Assembly (NCBI GenBank): GCA_030619985.1
Contig: JAUXAI010000039.1
Coordinates: forward strand, 1 to 11,761
DNA from: a bacterium
GTDB taxonomy: Bacteria > UBP18 > UBA7526
Length of the DNA: 11,761 nucleotides
Direction: 5' to 3'
Below the pieces are notes generated by a model. It searched no databases. It was not told the origin of the DNA and saw only the letters and a list, made by a program, of their open reading frames with translations. Below are positions 1 to 11,076 of this stretch, piece by piece. How positions within the stretch are numbered: the stretch's first letter is position 1; each line of letters begins with the position of its first letter. The translations under genes and the position numbers were made by a program.

Positions 1-642
1 TTGTCTGATTACATCTTCTCGGCTGTAAAGTCCACTCTTTGCTTGGCGAGTAATATTTATCCCGCCTGCCAGGATAATAAGATCTTGAATAAATGAATCT
101 TTGGTTATGGTAAATAATGGCCTTGCCCCTATCTGAACAAAAACTTTTGGCTTAGGTAGACCTTTAACCTTTTTACTAACGGAGTTTATTTTATTTTTCA
201 TTTGGCAAACTATTTCTTCTGCCTCGTCTTCTCTTCCAACGATTCTCCCTACTTCCATAAACTGCTTACAGATTTGAGAAAAGTTCTTGTTCTTATATAG
301 AGGAAAAGAAGTGACTCTTATGCCCAGGGATTTCAGTTTTTCAATCTGGTCAGGATCAGTTAAGGATGTAGCCAGTATTAAATCTGGTTTGAGAATTACT
401 ATCTTTTCTACGTCCACTTTAATTACTGTGCCCACCTTTTCTTTTTCTTCAGCCTCAGGAGGGCGGTCGCAATATATGGTGGTACCCACAATCCTATCCT
501 CCATTCCCAGAAGATAGAGTTCTTCGGTTATGGCAGGACTTAAGGAGACAATCCTCTGGGGTGATTCACTCCTTGCCTGTGAAATGGCAAAGAGAAGGAG
601 AAATAGGATTAAGGTTAAAACCTTTGTTCTTTTAATTTCCAT
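1..642 (-). CDS. btuF: BtuF-like corrinoid ABC transporter substrate-binding protein (3' end outside window)
   Basis: Exported binding protein predicted to capture vitamin B12 or other corrinoids for an ABC importer. The frame is open from the ATG at 642 to the window edge (214 codons), so the C-terminus is missing. Residues 1-25 form a signal peptide: a basic start (MEIKRTK), a leucine-rich core, then ISQARS. The mature part begins RIVSLSPAITEELYLLG, continues with VGTTIYCDRP and KIVILKPDLILA, and matches the first lobe of the Periplasmic_binding_2 (BtuF/FepB) fold. A GGAG ribosome site lies 8 nt before the ATG, and the start overlaps the upstream DUF71 gene by 28 bp. As last visible gene of the B12-riboswitch operon, corrinoid is a much likelier ligand than heme or siderophore, though the fold alone does not decide. 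Permease and ATPase genes would be expected beyond position 1. Confidence 0.85.
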   Translation of the reverse strand, partial: MEIKRTKVLTLILFLLLFAISQARSESPQRIVSLSPAITEELYLLGMEDRIVGTTIYCDRPPEAEEKEKVGTVIKVDVEKIVILKPDLILATSLTDPDQIEKLKSLGIRVTSFPLYKNKNFSQICKQFMEVGRIVGREDEAEEIVCQMKNKINSVSKKVKGLPKPKVFVQIGARPLFTITKDSFIQDLIILAGGINITRQAKSGLYSREDVIRQ

Positions 643-1289
643 TTTAAAATCTCCAGAAACCAATGATTCTTTTTTAATACTTTTTTACTTTTTGTAATTT
701 CGATTCGCTTCTTGAACAATGGCCCATAAATGGCGAGGGTGTGGTATTCGCCTTTTTCTCCACAGAGGTCGACGTTGCCTAGTTTCTTTAAGTCTTTTAT
801 GAATTCTTCATCTATTCTACGGCCCAACCATTCTCTACCTAACAAATCAGCCTTAGCAGCTACTACAAGAGCTTCAAAACCAGTCCGGATAAATTCTTTG
901 AGTAATCTCTCTCGGTCTTTTCCCCATAAGGGCAATAACGGTTGAATATCTGTCTCTCCACAAACTCTCTCTATCCAATCTCTGTGTTCCCGAAGGTCGA
1001 TATCACCAAAGATGCCTATCTTAATACCCTCCTTTTTCAACTCGGAAACTGCTTTTTTGAATACTCCTTCATAATTTTCCCAAGTAGTCTTTCTCTGTAT
1101 GATGGGGATGCCCATGGCATCTGCTTGGGTTCTCAAAAGAGCGGAACTGACTCCATGGGAACGAGAATGCCTACCATCCTCTGATACCATATTTAAGAGG
1201 TAGGCAACTTTGATATCTTGATCTTGCATCGCTCTATAGCAAGCCAATGATGTCTCCTTGCCCCCACTCCAAGAAACAAATGCCTTCAC
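615..1289 (-). CDS. DUF71/COG2102 PP-loop ATPase, B12-salvage type
   Basis: ATP-pyrophosphatase of the Dph6/MJ0570 family. In eukaryotes and archaea Dph6 amidates diphthine; bacteria lack diphthamide, and a published comparative-genomic analysis of DUF71/COG2102 predicted that a bacterial subgroup acts in B12 salvage. This gene's place between cob genes and btuF fits that. The PP-loop SGGKETS is at residues 8-14. A GDIDLREHRDWIERVCGE segment and the C-terminal GEKGEYHT motif (about 177-184) followed by GPLF are also family features. I chose GTG at 1289, giving 224 residues: it overlaps the preceding stop as GTGA, has a GGAG ribosome site 9 nt upstream, and starts just before the conserved VKAFVSWSGGK. 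An ATG 33 bp upstream (1322) is in frame but lies deep in the previous gene. The reaction is unknown; adenylation followed by amide formation is inferred. Confidence 0.85.
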   Translation of the reverse strand: MKAFVSWSGGKETSLACYRAMQDQDIKVAYLLNMVSEDGRHSRSHGVSSALLRTQADAMGIPIIQRKTTWENYEGVFKKAVSELKKEGIKIGIFGDIDLREHRDWIERVCGETDIQPLLPLWGKDRERLLKEFIRTGFEALVVAAKADLLGREWLGRRIDEEFIKDLKKLGNVDLCGEKGEYHTLAIYGPLFKKRIEITKSKKVLKKNHWFLEILKWKLKEQRF

Positions 1290-2215
1290 TCTCCTGCTCT
1301 CCAGTCCAAAACATTTCCACAAACCTGGCAGTGAAAACTATCCAAATCCATCCCCGCTCCGCATCCCGGACAGGCTTTCTGATTGTTCTTAGGTTTGGGG
1401 ATTTCTCCAACGACACTTCTGTATATCCTATAGTAATAAAAGTGCTCTTTGTTCATAAATTTTACAGCATAGGAGTTCTTCTTAAACTCTTCATCGGTTA
1501 TTTTGTTGGAGATAATCTCACGAATGTTTTCCATTCCTGAACCACACTCCAATGCCCTCTTATCCTGCCAAATAATCTCTTTGGGTAAAATATCTTCAAA
1601 TGCCTTACGTAAGATCCACTTTCCCAGAGACTTTCCGCCGTATTTTTTTAATTTCAAATCCAGATTTATTGATAAGGCAAAATTTACAAACTCTTTCTCT
1701 AAAAAAGGCTGGACAATTTTCATACCAAAAAAGTCACCTATACGATTAGAGCTAAATTTCATATTTCGCGATACTTTTTTAATGTATCCTTCCAAGTCAT
1801 CTATTTTTTGCATAAAAGAATAACCAGCAAAGAGCTCATCACTTCCATCACCAGTCATTATATCTTCCATTCCCATCTCTTTTGCTAATTTTAGGCCAAA
1901 GTAAACAACCAGATCATTAGGAATTGCCGGGTCAAAGCTCTTAAGGATCCTTATTACATCTGGAATAGAATCTATCGCTTCATCTATATTTACCCTTCTG
2001 TGATAATGGTTTAGTTTTAAATTCTTGGCCACTAATCCAGCATATGAGGTATCCTCTCCAAAGGATTCTAGGCTAACCGTGATGGCCTTCATATTGGGAT
2101 TTAAAACCGCTAAGATGCTGGTATCCAATCCTCCAGAAAAGAGTAGTCCTTCTGTAGAATTCTGCTGCATAGCCTCCCTCAATCTTTCTCGTAATTCAAT
2201 AGAGACTACTTTCAT
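1286..2215 (-). CDS. Standalone asparagine-synthetase-like amidotransferase domain with C-terminal zinc ribbon
   Basis: A 309-residue protein matching only the C-terminal synthetase half of AsnB. The PP-loop SGGLDTS is at residues 27-33 and the AsnB signature TGDGSDELFAGY at 121-132, followed by the helical FLEKEFVNFAL and GKWILRKAFEDILP segments typical of the family. There is no N-terminal glutaminase domain and no Cys2 nucleophile, so it would need free ammonia or a partner. Residues 282-299 carry CxxC-x10-CxxC (Cys282, 285, 296, 299), a zinc ribbon not found in ordinary AsnB. Its ATG forms an ATGA overlap with the cobS stop, and its own stop overlaps the GTG of the DUF71 gene, so it is tightly coupled to corrinoid salvage. 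Ordinary asparagine synthesis is therefore unlikely; ATP-dependent amidation of a corrinoid carboxylate is one inference. Family assignment is firm, substrate unknown. Confidence 0.85.
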   Translation of the reverse strand: MKVVSIELRERLREAMQQNSTEGLLFSGGLDTSILAVLNPNMKAITVSLESFGEDTSYAGLVAKNLKLNHYHRRVNIDEAIDSIPDVIRILKSFDPAIPNDLVVYFGLKLAKEMGMEDIMTGDGSDELFAGYSFMQKIDDLEGYIKKVSRNMKFSSNRIGDFFGMKIVQPFLEKEFVNFALSINLDLKLKKYGGKSLGKWILRKAFEDILPKEIIWQDKRALECGSGMENIREIISNKITDEEFKKNSYAVKFMNKEHFYYYRIYRSVVGEIPKPKNNQKACPGCGAGMDLDSFHCQVCGNVLDWRAGE

Positions 2216-2964
2216 AGAATTCCTCTATAGAGATTGAATAGTAGGAAAAGAATGAAGAGACTTCCCACTTCAATTATTTCGTTTATTGCTCCCAAGGTGT
2301 CGCCGGTCATTCCATTAATCCTCTTAGAAATAAATCTCATCAGAAGAAGGATTAGAGCCAGAATAAAGAAGAATAGTTCTAGGCCTAAGATTTTTAAGAA
2401 ACCTCCGGCAATCATCAGCGTAATTAAGCTGGCAACAACCAACTCCTTTCTTCCGCAATAGTTAACGAAGGCCTTTCCTGTTCCTCTCTTTCGAGCATAG
2501 ACAGATAAGGAACTGGCAACCACCATGGCCCATCTCCCCATAACAGGAAAGAGAAGTATGGCCCCTCTCTTTATTTCTAAAGGCATTTCGTGGAGCAGAA
2601 CTAACTTGAGCATTATTAAAGAGACTATTCCTACAATACCAAAGGCACCTACCCGGCTGTCTTTCATAATTTTTAAAATCTCTTCTCTCGATTTTCCTCC
2701 AGAGAGCCCATCAATAGTATCGATAAAGCCATCGATATGTAAGGCTCCGGTTAGAATAATCAAAACAATAATTGTCAAGGCATCTGCTACCAGGGGCGCT
2801 AAAAGAATAGAGAAACCCCAGTTGACCAGGACTAAGATTCCACCTAAGATTAATCCCACAATTGGAAAATAGGCTATGGACTTTCCCAGTCTCTTTTCAT
2901 CCTTAGAATATTTTTTACCGGGGGCTCGAGTTAAGAATTGGAGGGCGATTAGGAAATTTTTCAT
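2212..2964 (-). CDS. cobS: Adenosylcobinamide-GDP ribazoletransferase (cobalamin synthase)
   Basis: Integral membrane enzyme joining adenosylcobinamide-GDP to alpha-ribazole (or its 5'-phosphate) to form adenosylcobalamin (phosphate). The 250-residue length is normal. The N-terminal LIALQFLTRAP is typical, as is the central metal-binding signature LHIDGFIDTIDGL, with His76, Asp78, Asp82 and Asp85. MKDSRVGAFG (100-109) and a C-terminal MTGDTLGA motif also match CobS. Several hydrophobic segments are visible (about 30-57, 58-75, 107-126, a 175-207 block, and the C-terminus). The ATG overlaps the cobT stop (ATGA), with GGAGG just upstream, and the CobS stop overlaps the next start in the same way. 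It acts after CobU and CobT, both encoded just upstream. Confidence 0.97.
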   Translation of the reverse strand: MKNFLIALQFLTRAPGKKYSKDEKRLGKSIAYFPIVGLILGGILVLVNWGFSILLAPLVADALTIIVLIILTGALHIDGFIDTIDGLSGGKSREEILKIMKDSRVGAFGIVGIVSLIMLKLVLLHEMPLEIKRGAILLFPVMGRWAMVVASSLSVYARKRGTGKAFVNYCGRKELVVASLITLMIAGGFLKILGLELFFFILALILLLMRFISKRINGMTGDTLGAINEIIEVGSLFILFLLFNLYRGIL

Positions 2965-4037
2965 TCTTCCTCCAGACTCTTTGATACTTCAGCAGATTCG
3001 AAGGTTGCCATCTCGGTTAATACCTTCACCCCGACCTCAATGAGACTAATCCCTAAACAAGCGCCGGTTCCTTCGCCCAAGCGCATATCCAAGTCTAGCA
3101 AAGGTCGTAATCTCATCCTTTCCAAAATGGCCTTATGGCCTACCTCAACTGAAGAGTGGCTAGCGAAGATATAATCCTTTACTTTGGGTTCTAATTCGAA
3201 GGCGATCAATGCTCCAGCAGTAACGATGAAACCATCAGTAACCACTGGTATCCTGTGAGCTGCTGCTGCCAGAAAGGAACCGGCCAATCCTCCGATCTCG
3301 AAGCCCCCTACCTTGGCCAAGACATCTATGGGATCCTTTGGATTAGGTCTATTTAATTTGATAGCCCTCTTTATTACCTTTATCTTATTTTCAAATATTC
3401 CATCATTTATTCCTGTTCCCCGACCAGTAACCTCTTCTACTGGCCTACCAGTAATGACTGCCGTGACAGCGCTTGAGGGCGTAGTATTCCCTATCCCCAT
3501 GTCTCCTAAGCCCAGGATGTCGATTCCCTTCTTATACTCTTCCTCAAATACCTCTATTCCGGCCTCAATAGACTCTATTGCCTCTTCCCTGGTCATGGCC
3601 GGCCCCTTGGCCATATTCTTTGTCCCATACCCTATTTTTTTATCTATAACATTTTGCATTTTGAATTTTGCATTTTGAATTTTAGTAGCTACCCCCATAT
3701 CTACAACTATTACTCTTGCTCCTATATGGCGGGCTAAGACATTTATTCCCGCTCCTCCCCGTATGAAGTTATAGACCATCTGGGGGGTTACTTCTTGGGG
3801 GAAGGCGCTTACTCCTTCTTTAACTACTCCATGGTCCCCGGCCATAGTGAAGATAACTTTGTTCTTAAAGGAAGGGTTCTTTTCCCCAGTAATTCCTACT
3901 ACTTTCTTGGCCAATTCTTCTAACCTTCCCAGAGAATCTTGTGGCTTAGTCAGATTATCTAGTCTCTTTTGAGCCTCTACCTTTAGTTTCTTATCAACTG
4001 GCCCTATTCTTTTGATTATTTCTTCAATCCTTCCCAT
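2961..4037 (-). CDS. cobT: Nicotinate-nucleotide:base phosphoribosyltransferase (lower-ligand activation)
   Basis: Cytosolic enzyme transferring phosphoribose from nicotinate mononucleotide to a base such as 5,6-dimethylbenzimidazole, giving alpha-ribazole phosphate for CobS. The 358-residue length is typical. Recognisable segments are KPQDSLGRLEELA (31-43), TMAGDHGV (64-71), the GTKNMAKGPAMT stretch from about 138, GLGDMGIGNTTPSSAV, TGRGTGI, and GEGTGACLG near 321, where Glu322 matches the catalytic Glu317 of Salmonella CobT. Residues 119-129 (KIQNAKFKMQN) are read from a 14-bp tandem repeat and sit in a normally variable loop before the conserved KKIGYGTKN. The start is 5 bp after the cobU stop, with an AAGGGG ribosome site overlapping the cobU end; the stop overlaps cobS. 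Which base it uses cannot be told; no bluB is in the window. Confidence 0.97.
   Translation of the reverse strand: MGRIEEIIKRIGPVDKKLKVEAQKRLDNLTKPQDSLGRLEELAKKVVGITGEKNPSFKNKVIFTMAGDHGVVKEGVSAFPQEVTPQMVYNFIRGGAGINVLARHIGARVIVVDMGVATKIQNAKFKMQNVIDKKIGYGTKNMAKGPAMTREEAIESIEAGIEVFEEEYKKGIDILGLGDMGIGNTTPSSAVTAVITGRPVEEVTGRGTGINDGIFENKIKVIKRAIKLNRPNPKDPIDVLAKVGGFEIGGLAGSFLAAAAHRIPVVTDGFIVTAGALIAFELEPKVKDYIFASHSSVEVGHKAILERMRLRPLLDLDMRLGEGTGACLGISLIEVGVKVLTEMATFESAEVSKSLEEE
3651..3683 (-). repeat. 14-bp tandem repeat inside cobT
   Basis: Two perfect direct copies of TTTTGCATTTTGAA (plus strand) with a partial third, 33 bp in all, translated in frame as CobT residues 119-129. The AT-rich 'attcaaaatgcaaaa' style resembles the intergenic repeat at 6480-6630 and not neighbouring cobT codons. 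The tract replaces a variable loop and leaves the reading frame intact. Confidence 0.8.
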
Positions 4038-4042
4038 TTACA

Positions 4043-4558
4043 TCACCCCTTCACTTTTACTGGAATTCCAGATACCACCAGATAGACTTCATCTGCTGCC
4101 TGAGCGACTATCTGGTTTGCTCTGCCTGCTATATCTCTAAACCTTCGGGCTAATTTGTTATCTGGTACAATTCCCATTCCTACTTCGTTAGAGACTATCA
4201 AAACGGTTGCCTTAATCTCTCTTATTTTGTTTACCAGTTGCCTAATTTTTTTTAAAACATCCTTCTTACCGCTCAATAATAAATTAGAAATTAAGAGGGT
4301 GAGGCAGTCTAAGAGAATGACCTCATTCTTTTCTGCTATTCGGGATAATACTTCAGTAATATTCTTCTCCTTCTCTATTGTCTTCCAGTGAGCGGGGCGA
4401 TTCTTTCGATGAATCTTTATCCTCACTTCCATCTCTTTATCTTTTGCCTGGGCGGTGGCAATATAGGTCACTTTCTTACTTAATCTATTGGCCGACTTCT
4501 GGGCGAAAGCGCTCTTGCCGCTCCTCGCCCCTCCAGTGATAAATATTAACCTTCCCAT
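4043..4558 (-). CDS. cobU: Adenosylcobinamide kinase / adenosylcobinamide-phosphate guanylyltransferase
   Basis: Bifunctional enzyme that phosphorylates adenosylcobinamide and then transfers GMP from GTP, making the adenosylcobinamide-GDP used by CobS. At 171 residues it is a normal length. GGARSGKS (9-16) is the Walker A loop. In RIKIHRKNRPAHW, His50 aligns with His46 of Salmonella CobU, which is guanylylated during catalysis. VILLDCLTLLISNLL is the Walker B-like strand, and SNEVGMGIVPDNKLARRFRDIAGRANQ with the C-terminal DEVYLVVSGIPVKVKG is highly characteristic. I chose ATG 4558: it has a GAGG ribosome site and begins MGRLIFITGGARSGKS as the family does. An in-frame start at 4615 would add 19 residues read from dispersed repeat sequence and is rejected. 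First gene of the B12-riboswitch operon. Confidence 0.96.
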   Translation of the reverse strand: MGRLIFITGGARSGKSAFAQKSANRLSKKVTYIATAQAKDKEMEVRIKIHRKNRPAHWKTIEKEKNITEVLSRIAEKNEVILLDCLTLLISNLLLSGKKDVLKKIRQLVNKIREIKATVLIVSNEVGMGIVPDNKLARRFRDIAGRANQIVAQAADEVYLVVSGIPVKVKG

Positions 4559-4571
4559 CTTTACCTCGCTT

Positions 4572-4732: not shown

Positions 4733-4772
4733 AAAAAAGTACTTCAACCTTCCCTCGAAGGCCAGTTACTTC

Positions 4773-4932
4773 AGCATCCAGCGAGATTTCCTGGCTTCCG
4801 GATCATCCTACTTCCCACGCCTTCCCGAGACGCGAATTATCGCAAATACTCAGTGGCGGTTGTGGGTTTCGTCCCCAGTTACAGTGGCGGGGCCACTCCG
4901 GTTTCTCACCGGATTCCCTCAGCCTGGATACT
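4773..4932 (-). promoter_or_regulatory. Cobalamin (AdoCbl) riboswitch aptamer
   Basis: Transcribed leader of the cob operon. It contains the conserved core in order: a GAGGGAATCCGGTG segment, GCCCCGCCACTGTAA, and the B12 box AAGCCAGGAAATCTCGCTGG (4797-4778). The closing P1 helix can form between GTATCC (4931-4926) and GGATGC (4779-4774). With the terminator that follows, it would stop transcription of cobU-cobT-cobS and downstream genes when cobalamin is abundant. A peripheral arm at 4851-4827 holds a repeat-like palindromic segment resembling tracts at 4624-4690 and 10859-10900. Confidence 0.95.
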
Positions 4933-4955
4933 TACTATATTTAGTTACTGAATCT

Positions 4956-4984
4956 AGTTTAACCTATTATTTCCCGTTTGTCAA
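4956..4984 (-). promoter_or_regulatory. Sigma70-like promoter for the cob operon
   Basis: TTGACA (4984-4979) is a perfect -35, followed by a 17-bp spacer and TAAACT (4961-4956) as -10. Predicted transcription starts near 4949, about 17 nt before the riboswitch. The -35 lies inside the last codons of the upstream phosphatase gene, so the cob operon gets its own start without an intergenic gap. Confidence 0.7.
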
Positions 4985-5593
4985 GTTTTTTAGATGGGAG
5001 GTATCATTCTGGAGCAAGACCTTTGCTCTCTTACTTTGATACTCGATAATGGAGATTCCTCCATTGCTGGTAATTGTCTTCCACCAATTGTCGGTTCCCA
5101 GGCCTAAGGCATCCATGAGGATAATGCGGATCGGCCCTCCGTGGGTGACGATGGCTACCCTTTGATTGGGGTGAGTGCTAATGATTTTCTTTATTGTAGT
5201 CTTAGTACGTTCTGCTAATTCCTGGATGCTCTCTCCTCTGGGAATTTTAATCTTAGAGGGCTCTCTCTCCCATTCATCAAGAAGCCCTCTCCACTCCCTT
5301 TGAATTTCATCATGCGTCTTCCCCTCCCAATCACCAAAGTCTATTTCCCTTAACTGAGGGAGGGTTCTTATCTTCAAGGAGTGGTAACGATTTATAGCCT
5401 TTGCTGTATACTCTGTTCTTCTTAGGTCGCTGGAGTAGATAGCGTTTAAGGGCTCGTTTCTTAATCTTAGGGCGGTCTCTTTCGTCTGCCTCTTCCCCTT
5501 TCTTGTCAAGGGCGTATCCCTATGCCCCTGATATCTTCTATCCCTATTGTAAGGTGTTTCGCCATGCCTGATTAAGATTAGGGTAGTGCTCAT
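4967..5593 (-). CDS. Histidine phosphatase (phosphoglycerate mutase family), possible alpha-ribazole phosphatase CobC
   Basis: A 208-residue histidine-phosphatase-superfamily protein. The RHGET motif gives the phospho-acceptor His10, followed by YQGHRDTPLTRKG, the SSDLRRTEYTA segment, REIDFGDWEGKTHDEI and the second catalytic histidine in THGG (His151). These are CobC/GpmB-like features. Dephosphorylation of alpha-ribazole phosphate or cobalamin phosphate is the best guess because cobU, cobT and cobS lie just downstream, but the family is broad and sequence alone cannot exclude another phosphomonoester. Its ATG overlaps the PHP gene stop (ATGA), so it is cotranscribed with the upstream FMN-controlled operon and not with the B12-riboswitch genes. 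Its last codons contain the -35 element of the cob promoter. Confidence 0.85.
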   Translation of the reverse strand: MSTTLILIRHGETPYNRDRRYQGHRDTPLTRKGKRQTKETALRLRNEPLNAIYSSDLRRTEYTAKAINRYHSLKIRTLPQLREIDFGDWEGKTHDEIQREWRGLLDEWEREPSKIKIPRGESIQELAERTKTTIKKIISTHPNQRVAIVTHGGPIRIILMDALGLGTDNWWKTITSNGGISIIEYQSKRAKVLLQNDTSHLKNLTNGK

Positions 5594-6471
5594 AGTTTTG
5601 CCTTTGCTTCCTTCAATCTTTCTATGATTTCATAGGGAGCTTTCACTCTTCCCAGGCGTATCTCTCCCTTTACCTTTCCGTGACAGTCACTCCCCCCAGT
5701 AATCACGAGATCATACTTCTTGGCAAGGGTTATGTAGTAACGAATAACAGAGGGAGGGTTTATGGCATCATAGGCTTCCAGACCCATAAGACCATTCTTT
5801 ACCAATTGAGGAATGAGTTCATCAACCTTGGTCCCTGCGGGATGGGCAAGAACCGGGATGCCCCCTGCTTTCAAGATGATATCTATGGCCTCAGAAGGCC
5901 TCAGTTTATACTTGGGAACAGAGACCGGGCCTCCGCTTCCCAAATACCTCCAGGCGCCCTCAGGAATATTGGGGGCGTATTCCTTCTCCACCAAGGCCTG
6001 GGCGATATGGGGTTTACCGATGGAACCCTTTCCGGCGATCTCTTCCACCCTTCCAAAGTCAACCTCCATTCCTAAACTCTTTAGCCTCTTGACCATCTTC
6101 TTTGCCCTCTCGTATCTCGCTTTCCTGAAAAGGGCTAGTTTCTTCTGGAATTCTTCATCCTCACAATCCATATAGTAGCCCAGGATGTGAACCTCCTTTT
6201 TCCCGTAATCGCTGGAAAGCTCCACCCCAGGCACTACCTCTAATCGGTACTTAGAGGCTGTCCTCTGGGCTATCTCGATTCCATCTGTGACATCATGATC
6301 CGTTATCCCTATCGCTACCAATCCCTCTTTGTGAGCGCACTCTATTACTTCTTTGGGAGTAAGTGCTCCATCTGAGATGGTAGTATGAATGTGAAGGTCA
6401 ACCCCGCACCTTTTACTTCGGGGTATTTTTTTGAAGCAAAAAGGTGCGGGGTCAACGTACTTCTCAGGCAT
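5590..6471 (-). CDS. PHP-domain metal-dependent phosphoesterase with in-frame palindromic insertion
   Basis: A 293-residue PHP-family protein resembling RNase AM/YciV-type 5'-3' exoribonuclease or 3',5'-nucleotide bisphosphate phosphatase. Metal ligands are visible at His27, His29, Asp34 (HIHTTISDG), His59 (ITDHD), Glu84 (PGVELS), His95 (EVHILGYY), His210 (LAHPAG), Asp262 and His264 (GGSDCHG). The ATG at 6471 has an AAGGA ribosome site. Residues 8-25 are encoded by a palindromic element; without it the protein would start MPEKYVDLHIHTT, the usual PHP N-terminus, and be about 275 residues, close to family length. All metal ligands lie downstream of the insert, so activity is plausible. The stop overlaps the phosphatase start (ATGA). 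The link to riboflavin or B12 is unknown; nucleotide or RNA end turnover is the family role. Confidence 0.9.
   Translation of the reverse strand: MPEKYVDPAPFCFKKIPRSKRCGVDLHIHTTISDGALTPKEVIECAHKEGLVAIGITDHDVTDGIEIAQRTASKYRLEVVPGVELSSDYGKKEVHILGYYMDCEDEEFQKKLALFRKARYERAKKMVKRLKSLGMEVDFGRVEEIAGKGSIGKPHIAQALVEKEYAPNIPEGAWRYLGSGGPVSVPKYKLRPSEAIDIILKAGGIPVLAHPAGTKVDELIPQLVKNGLMGLEAYDAINPPSVIRYYITLAKKYDLVITGGSDCHGKVKGEIRLGRVKAPYEIIERLKEAKAKL
6397..6456 (-). repeat. 48-bp palindromic element with 6-bp flanking direct repeat inside the PHP gene
   Basis: On the minus strand GTTGAC (6456-6451) and GTTGAC (6402-6397) flank a 48-bp segment. With flanking bases, ACCCCGCACCTTTT and AAAAGGTGCGGGGT form 14-bp perfect inverted arms, and CTTC/GAAG extends the stem inside. 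The segment is 16 codons long with no stop and encodes PAPFCFKKIPRSKRCG. The flanking repeat looks like a target duplication; removing 48+6 bp restores YVDLHIHTT. It resembles in principle the Rickettsia palindromic elements found inside proteins. No second copy is in the window. Confidence 0.85.
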
Positions 6472-10858: not shown

Positions 10859-10900
10859 CGCGTCAATTCGCGTATTTTAATTCGCGACTATTCGCGTCTG
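10859..10900 (-). repeat. TTCGCG-type repeat between FMN aptamer and terminator
   Basis: A 42-bp AT-rich spacer with TTCGCG three times plus a leading CGCG, separated by short variable runs, matching the ACRCGAAT family also seen in the cobU leader and inside the cobalamin riboswitch. It lies within the expression platform. Confidence 0.7.
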
Positions 10901-11047
10901 ATCTTCTCCCGTCCGGACTATACCGTCGGCTTCAGAATTTCACTGAATCAATCCAGACATAATCATGTCCGGACTCGCGGGCTTTACCGCCGATCGAGGA
11001 ATTCCCACCTCCGCCAAGGCTTCGGTGGGTCACCTCACCCCGAAGAT
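10901..11047 (-). promoter_or_regulatory. FMN riboswitch (RFN element)
   Basis: Shows the conserved RFN core in order on the minus strand: ATCTTCGGGGTGAGGTG (from 11047), GGTGGGAATTCC, CGGCGGTAAAGCCCGCGAG, the GAAATTC loop, AAGCCGACGGTATAGTCCGGA, and GGGAGAAGAT (ending 10901). ATCTTC and GAAGAT close the P1 helix. FMN binding stabilises the aptamer and favours the terminator at 10829-10858, reducing transcription of ribD and following genes. Confidence 0.97.
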
Positions 11048-11049
11048 TC

Positions 11050-11076
11050 ACCCCGCTCCCCCATGAGGGACGGGGT
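11050..11076 (-). other. Extra hairpin just upstream of the FMN aptamer
   Basis: ACCCCG (11076-11071) can pair with CGGGGT (11055-11050), extended by TCCC/GGGA, in the transcribed leader two bases before P1. The arm ACCCCG is also complementary to CGGGGT at the start of the aptamer (within 11042-11037), so it could compete for that strand. It is not part of the standard RFN fold; role inferred. Confidence 0.55.

Follow-up and report, generated by a model that had tools for sequence, protein, structure and literature searches.

A cobalamin riboswitch operon with two PP-loop ATPases

The stretch of DNA analysed here (the window) is one whole 11.8-kb contig (JAUXAI010000039.1, 11,761 nucleotides) of a metagenome-assembled genome (MAG; GCA_030619985.1) from the bacterial lineage UBP18, 1.25 Mb in size and 84% complete. 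Its minus strand carries a B12 operon in which a cobalamin riboswitch is followed by cobU, cobT, cobS, a gene of the asparagine synthetase (AsnB) type, a DUF71 gene and btuF. The AsnB-type protein is our main subject; we call it AsnBz, a name used for a synthetase of 309 amino acids (aa) that lacks a glutaminase and bears a CxxC-x10-CxxC ribbon in its C-terminal part. The parts of the operon are:

4763-4967, minus strand: cobalamin riboswitch aptamer (RF00174), operon head; cmscan 89 bits against a gathering score of 31.5, E 2.1e-21
4043-4561, minus strand: cobU, adenosylcobinamide (AdoCbi) kinase/guanylyltransferase; PF02283, E 1.2e-65; NF004469 above cut-off
2961-4037, minus strand: cobT, dimethylbenzimidazole phosphoribosyltransferase; TIGR03160, 460 bits against a cut-off of 319
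2212-2964, minus strand: cobS, AdoCbi-GDP ribazoletransferase; TIGR00317, 117.7 bits against a cut-off of 110
1286-2215, minus strand: AsnBz, stand-alone AsnB-type synthetase (PP-loop ATPase), 309 aa; PF00733, E 3.8e-38
615-1289, minus strand: DUF71/COG2102 protein of the DUF71-B12 subgroup, 224 aa; PF01902, E 7.6e-57
1-642, minus strand: btuF, B12-binding protein, incomplete at the contig end; PF01497, E 3.9e-28; BtuF among the best NCBIfam matches, below cut-off

The RF00174 and family matches confirmed the riboswitch-headed cobU-cobT-cobS operon described in a first-pass annotation. The gapless run it reported holds from cobT to DUF71, with ATGA overlaps at cobT/cobS and cobS/AsnBz and a GTGA overlap at AsnBz/DUF71, but 5 nucleotides separate cobU (start taken at MGRLIFITGG) from cobT. 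A btuF gene does follow DUF71, but the contig, which is the whole window, ends within it. In the relative G003 (G and L numbers denote genomes and loci) the operon continues as cbiZ, a radical S-adenosylmethionine (SAM) gene, btuF, btuR, btuC, btuD, a second cobalamin riboswitch and a TonB receptor gene. A cobC-like phosphatase gene (4967-5593) and a PHP-domain gene (5590-6471) precede the B12 operon in the window.

The AsnB-type synthetase domain lacking a glutaminase and ending in a four-cysteine ribbon, also claimed from the sequence at first pass, was borne out by family searches and alignment. The PF00733 match spans the synthetase part only, at which the protein starts, and neither family search nor alignment gave AsnBz a counterpart of the N-terminal residues of E. 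coli AsnB, that is, the class II glutaminase domain with Cys1. The following motifs were recognized:

2117-2137, minus strand: PP-loop motif SGGLDTS, AsnBz residues 27-33
1835-1852, minus strand: GDGSDE motif, AsnBz residues 122-127 (GEGSDE in E. coli AsnB)
1553-1570, minus strand: WQDKRA with the invariant Lys219, aligned to Lys449 of E. coli AsnB
1319-1372, minus strand: C-terminal ribbon CPGC-x10-CQVC, AsnBz residues 282-299
738-761, minus strand: GEKGEYHT signature of DUF71-B12, with His replacing Glu188 of Dph6

An AlphaFold2 model of AsnBz (predicted local distance difference test, pLDDT, 90.3) is nearest to human ASNS (Z 28.0-28.2; 28.0 for PDB 8sue) and E. coli AsnB (PDB 1ct9; Z 24.8), followed by beta-lactam and carbapenam synthetases. 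AsnBz thus has in common with AsnB/ASNS the synthetase fold, the PP-loop SGGLD[ST]S, GxGSDE and the catalytic Lys449, and differs in the missing N-terminal glutaminase, Asp in place of Glu348, an altered TTIR segment, the added four-cysteine ribbon and its B12-operon context. The CobQ family with GATase_3 gave no match to AsnBz in family searches. The E. coli segment TTIRAS, part of which has been tied to aspartate binding, reads -AIPND in the alignment; AsnB relatives with a different sequence at this segment still make asparagine. Retention of the catalytic motifs together with the altered segment suggests, as only a hint, that AsnBz may be an active adenylating ligase for a carboxylate other than aspartate.

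The best family and fold matches of AsnBz are AsnB/ASNS, as would be expected of an ordinary ammonia-dependent asparagine synthetase that stands in the operon by accident. We consider this highly improbable, because AsnBz scores far under the AsnB equivalog cut-offs (NF006949, 147 vs 499 bits; TIGR01536, 105.7 vs 267.1 bits), because the TTIRAS segment is replaced, because, as described below, AsnBz has this neighbourhood in several phyla, and because the genome encodes two further, full-length AsnB proteins with glutaminase, so that AsnBz is not needed for asparagine.

The assignment of the next gene to DUF71/COG2102 also stood (PF01902, 192.8 bits against a gathering score of 23.2), with the histidine signature of the B12 subgroup. 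GExGE[FY]H was present in all 22 DUF71 proteins listed, and the window protein departs from Dph6 both in the His at Glu188 of EGG[ED]xE and in its TIGR03679 score (132.5 bits against a cut-off of 197.3). Adjoining btuF, it has the transport-gene neighbourhood expected of DUF71-B12, a subgroup marked by the histidine in this motif, in which 75 of 102 genes adjoin B12 transporter genes (PMC3541065). The published subgroup resembles the window protein in PF01902, GExGE[FY]H and btuF/btuCD neighbours; its published links are with CbiB and transporters, and none is with a separate AsnBz. It has been suspected of a part in pseudo-B12 salvage, CbiZ-like or of another kind, and substitution for CbiZ was proposed from an anticorrelation of the two in bacteria (PMC3541065); a 2016 survey still gave its function as unknown (PMC5041015). 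Archaeal AsnB-DUF71 fusions join two PP-loop ATPases of the same families, but retain a GAT-II glutaminase and have been considered as suppliers of ammonia for diphthamide synthesis (PMC3541065).

In two UBP18 genomes a B12-type DUF71 has CbiZ as its next gene (L012:7647-9033; L119:7086-8331), and G003 and G001 retain both genes, contrary to the strict bacterial anticorrelation reported in 2012. In an Aminicenantes locus (L030:7902-9335), DUF71 ends after residue 72 and is followed by CbiZ fused to a PgpA-like, possibly CobZ-type, domain; this stump beside an intact CbiZ is compatible with the published proposal of overlapping DUF71 and CbiZ roles. The DUF71 truncation in G250 was rejected as biology, the gene running into the contig end.

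Distribution and neighbourhoods of AsnBz

We scanned genome contigs with two short peptides, by which distant orthologues may be missed. The scan led to relatives in UBP18, Aminicenantes, Omnitrophota, Spirochaetales, Aerophobetes and Dehalococcoidia/Chloroflexota; its 20th hit, a flavobacterial 25% match, was excluded. The set of 20 AsnBz orthologues compared here includes the window protein, to which the 19 others are 45-76% identical. Their alignment conserves A97, P99, N100, D101, Lys219 and KF[MI]NKEH, as well as the ribbon cysteines, except in one row ended by its contig. AsnBz is therefore a real family, and its genes lie mostly among B12 genes, often with a cobalamin riboswitch. A typical order in Omnitrophota is riboswitch, cobC, cobU, cobT, cobS, cbiB, cobD, AsnBz, DUF71, btuF, btuC, btuD and TonB receptor. 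The conserved neighbourhood that the first-pass annotation had proposed to look for in related genomes was thus found in several phyla, a recurrence that argues against a chance arrangement.

Genome-wide, none of the 20 AsnBz genomes had a GATase_3 match of CbiA or CbiP grade, the only strong match being a 208-aa stand-alone domain in G011. These genomes seem to be without de novo B12 synthesis, and a role for AsnBz in the de novo pathway was rejected since CbiA and CbiP were not found in them. Exactly one DUF71 match was present in each of the 20 (one copy truncated). Among 237 Omnitrophota genomes, AsnBz was found in 12 and DUF71 in 76, and 10 of the 12 AsnBz genomes had both (Fisher p 2.7e-4, not tree-corrected); G032, in which AsnBz is ended by the contig end, is one of the two outside the 10. 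G161 has AsnBz-CbpA-CbpB-btuF, and no DUF71 was found in its assembly. Since AsnBz is kept in G161 and beside the Aminicenantes DUF71 stump, DUF71 is not its obligate partner. The joint activity of an AsnBz-DUF71 pair, as first supposed, is consequently weakened, by these two cases (G161 and L030) and by the counts of 76 against 12 in Omnitrophota; more probably, DUF71 performs a salvage step separate from that of AsnBz. In one Omnitrophota genome, AsnBz is interrupted by stop codons with no intact CbpB adjoining (L111:9477-10397).

Several of these operons encode a small peptide, CbpA (35-38 aa, ...RKKCKA[SN]GTGLSHY[VI]L.DKK, TIGR04164), at L014:3273-3386, L109:7179-7283, L033, L110, L112, L114 and L120. 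In B12 salvage operons it adjoins the radical SAM/SPASM enzyme CbpB (TIGR04163), and either separates AsnBz from DUF71 or immediately precedes AsnBz; a divergent CbpA form reads YRLKCAKTANGLSH[FY]VMYGD. CbpB occurs in 21 of the 237 Omnitrophota genomes, mostly within cob operons with CbiP (L146-L162, L124-L143), and none of the papers searched names CbpA/CbpB by family name. AsnBz could itself belong to this modified-peptide system and form an amide or isopeptide in CbpA, comparable to the AsnB-like cyclase of lasso peptides, and in seven loci CbpA does follow AsnBz immediately or, together with CbpB, immediately precede it. We hold this to be very unlikely, given that CbpB is present in only two of 22 genomes of the AsnBz/UBP18 set and was not found in the window genome, and that CbpAB is found beside CbiP as well, where AsnBz is lacking; CbpA/CbpB would rather be a separate peptide-modifying module that only some clusters combine with AsnBz and DUF71. 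Two more small radical SAM proteins of no clear family lie between DUF71 and btuF (L012:6786-7646; L014:5644-6372; L112:5033-6624). Elsewhere in the window, an ordinary flavin mononucleotide (FMN) riboswitch (10897-11051) heads riboflavin genes and a nusB-like gene.

Alternation with cobyric acid synthase

We compared loci chosen via AsnBz, DUF71 or CbpB, in which, outside the 20 AsnBz genomes, absence of CbiP means absence from the locus. Among 29 loci with both cbiB and cobD, 13 carry AsnBz only and 16 CbiP only, with none carrying both or neither. All DUF71- or CbpB-bearing loci with cbiB and cobD but without AsnBz contain a CbiP-like gene of around 500 aa; the 12 submitted to NCBIfam were all identified as cobyric acid synthase, eight of them from the 16 CbiP loci. 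A further 33 DUF71 loci, picked from AsnBz-negative genomes and mostly arranged as btuFCD-cobCUTS-DUF71-TonB receptor, have neither cbiB+cobD nor CbiP nor AsnBz, which indicates that AsnBz tracks the cobyric-acid branch and not DUF71 alone. In many Omnitrophota (L163-L182) the locus reads btuFCD-cobC-cobU-cobT-cobS-DUF71-TonB receptor and contains neither cbiB nor cobD. Should both genes indeed be missing from the whole genome, DUF71 would have no CbiB to feed in these bacteria, which would speak against formation of cobyric acid by DUF71.

Phylogenetic analysis of DUF71 recovered an AsnBz-linked clade (support 100/96) with three CbiP genomes nested in it: G173 pairs with the AsnBz genome G012 (100/99), and G087 and G107 group with the AsnBz genome G071 (100/96). 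In all three, CbiP lies directly before DUF71, the slot of AsnBz in other genomes; on this tree, CbiP appears in that slot in two separate lineages, as two events. G071 (AsnBz) and G087 (CbiP) are otherwise syntenic, with identities of 48% for the TonB receptor, 43% for TonB, 56% for DUF71, 47% for BtuF and 61% for BtuC.

In the CbiB tree, the AsnBz-linked proteins of cbiB+cobD loci form one clade, whereas UBP18 genomes with AsnBz encode their CbiBs outside the operon, and these proteins fall into a different clade, so that AsnBz needs no special CbiB. Replacement of CbiB by AsnBz was rejected, CbiB being present in five of six genomes of the phylum and beside AsnBz in Omnitrophota, and a dedicated AsnBz/CbiB partnership was weakened by the separate UBP18 clade. 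These data also bear on the idea that AsnBz serves CbiB by activating the f-propionate of cobyric acid, the amine being aminopropanol phosphate and a glutaminase hence unnecessary. The Omnitrophota order cobS-cbiB-cobD-AsnBz and the single clade of AsnBz-linked CbiBs would agree with it, but in the 16 loci with CbiP, CbiB evidently functions in the absence of AsnBz, and this and the UBP18 CbiBs make it unlikely in our judgement.

Several points weigh against a functional exchange of AsnBz for CbiP. The raw Fisher value for the 29 loci (1.5e-8) overstates the alternation, since the AsnBz-linked CbiBs form one clade; this implies that a cbiB-AsnBz module travelled as a unit, also across phyla, and that the independent events are few. 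Independent support comes from the DUF71 tree with its two swaps, of which one lies on a deeper branch of weak support, and the exclusivity may reflect salvage versus de novo lifestyle alone. The genomes are MAGs, 53-93% complete where known. In Chloroflexota, AsnBz stands beside btu/cob genes, often divergently, with several of the genes not inside B12 operons, and no riboswitch was called at these loci. Finally, the source of under-amidated corrinoids is an assumption.

A proposed role in corrinoid salvage

Based on these sequence comparisons, we tentatively propose, at somewhat short of an even chance, that AsnBz is a corrinoid amidoligase that replaces cobyric acid synthase (CbiP/CobQ) where de novo B12 synthesis is absent. 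In the mechanism we infer, including its corrinoid substrate, ammonia donor, product and a role for the ribbon, AsnBz would adenylate peripheral carboxylates of scavenged corrinoids that are incompletely amidated or partly hydrolysed, and would amidate them with free ammonia, proposed as donor because AsnBz is without a glutaminase. The ribbon might, as supposed at first pass, act as a docking or ammonia-supply module. The product would be cobyric acid, which CbiB would join to aminopropanol phosphate; CobU, CobT and CobS would then convert the CbiB product to a cobamide, and DUF71 would perform its separate step. As AsnBz alternates with CbiP, and CbiP takes its slot before DUF71, AsnBz most likely would supply the CbiB substrate as a non-orthologous, ammonia-using analogue of CbiP. 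Like CbiP/CobQ, it fills the operon place of the step that feeds CbiB, in cbiB+cobD operons and before DUF71, and the two were mutually exclusive in the loci read; the likeness is one of positional and phyletic alternation only, CbiP/CobQ, which amidates corrin side chains b, d, e and g, being of the unrelated, glutamine-dependent CobQ family, and some CbiP loci carry de novo genes (CbiA, CbiL and CbiM near L154).

As a source of cobyric acid upstream of CbiB, AsnBz could also replace CbiP if, alone or with DUF71, it released cobyric acid from scavenged cobamides in a CbiZ-like remodelling, with CbiB rebuilding the nucleotide loop. The anticorrelation from which DUF71 was earlier proposed as a CbiZ substitute would fit (PMC3541065). 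PP-loop amidoligases, however, form amides, an objection that Aravind's review raised for DUF71, and AsnBz occurs alongside intact CbiZ in G003 and G006; such remodelling therefore appears rather unlikely. The remodelling enzymes CbiZ and CbiR likewise belong to salvage and precede CbiB or CobU, but are hydrolases of other folds and not ATP-dependent ligases (PMC7733943). Amidation by AsnBz, on the other hand, would account for its intact ligase residues, the missing glutaminase, the exclusion of CbiP, its absence where cbiB and cobD are lacking and its presence with or without CbiZ. The corrinoid (re-)amidation put forward at first pass thus gained support for AsnBz, from its alternation with CbiP in cbiB+cobD operons and from genomes without CbiA/CbiP, while the share assigned to DUF71 became weaker.

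What is new here is the AsnBz/CbiP alternation across cbiB+cobD loci; none of the papers searched joins asparagine synthase with a corrinoid or cobalamin riboswitch or with cobyric acid salvage. To our knowledge, no enzymes other than CbiA and CbiP have been found to amidate the corrin ring. AsnBz might then, although we think it less likely than not, represent a third corrin amidase family unrelated to both, a glutaminase-free, ribbon-bearing AsnB relative that completes or repairs under-amidated environmental corrinoids in salvage-only UBP18, Omnitrophota, Aminicenantes and Dehalococcoidia. If so, anoxic sediments and groundwater would offer incomplete or hydrolysed corrinoids as a nutrient, the annotation 'asparagine synthase' would have to be corrected in many MAGs, and AsnBz would give a handle on DUF71-B12. 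Together, our analyses make AsnBz a good candidate for a so far unrecognised enzyme by which scavenged B12 precursors are completed or repaired.

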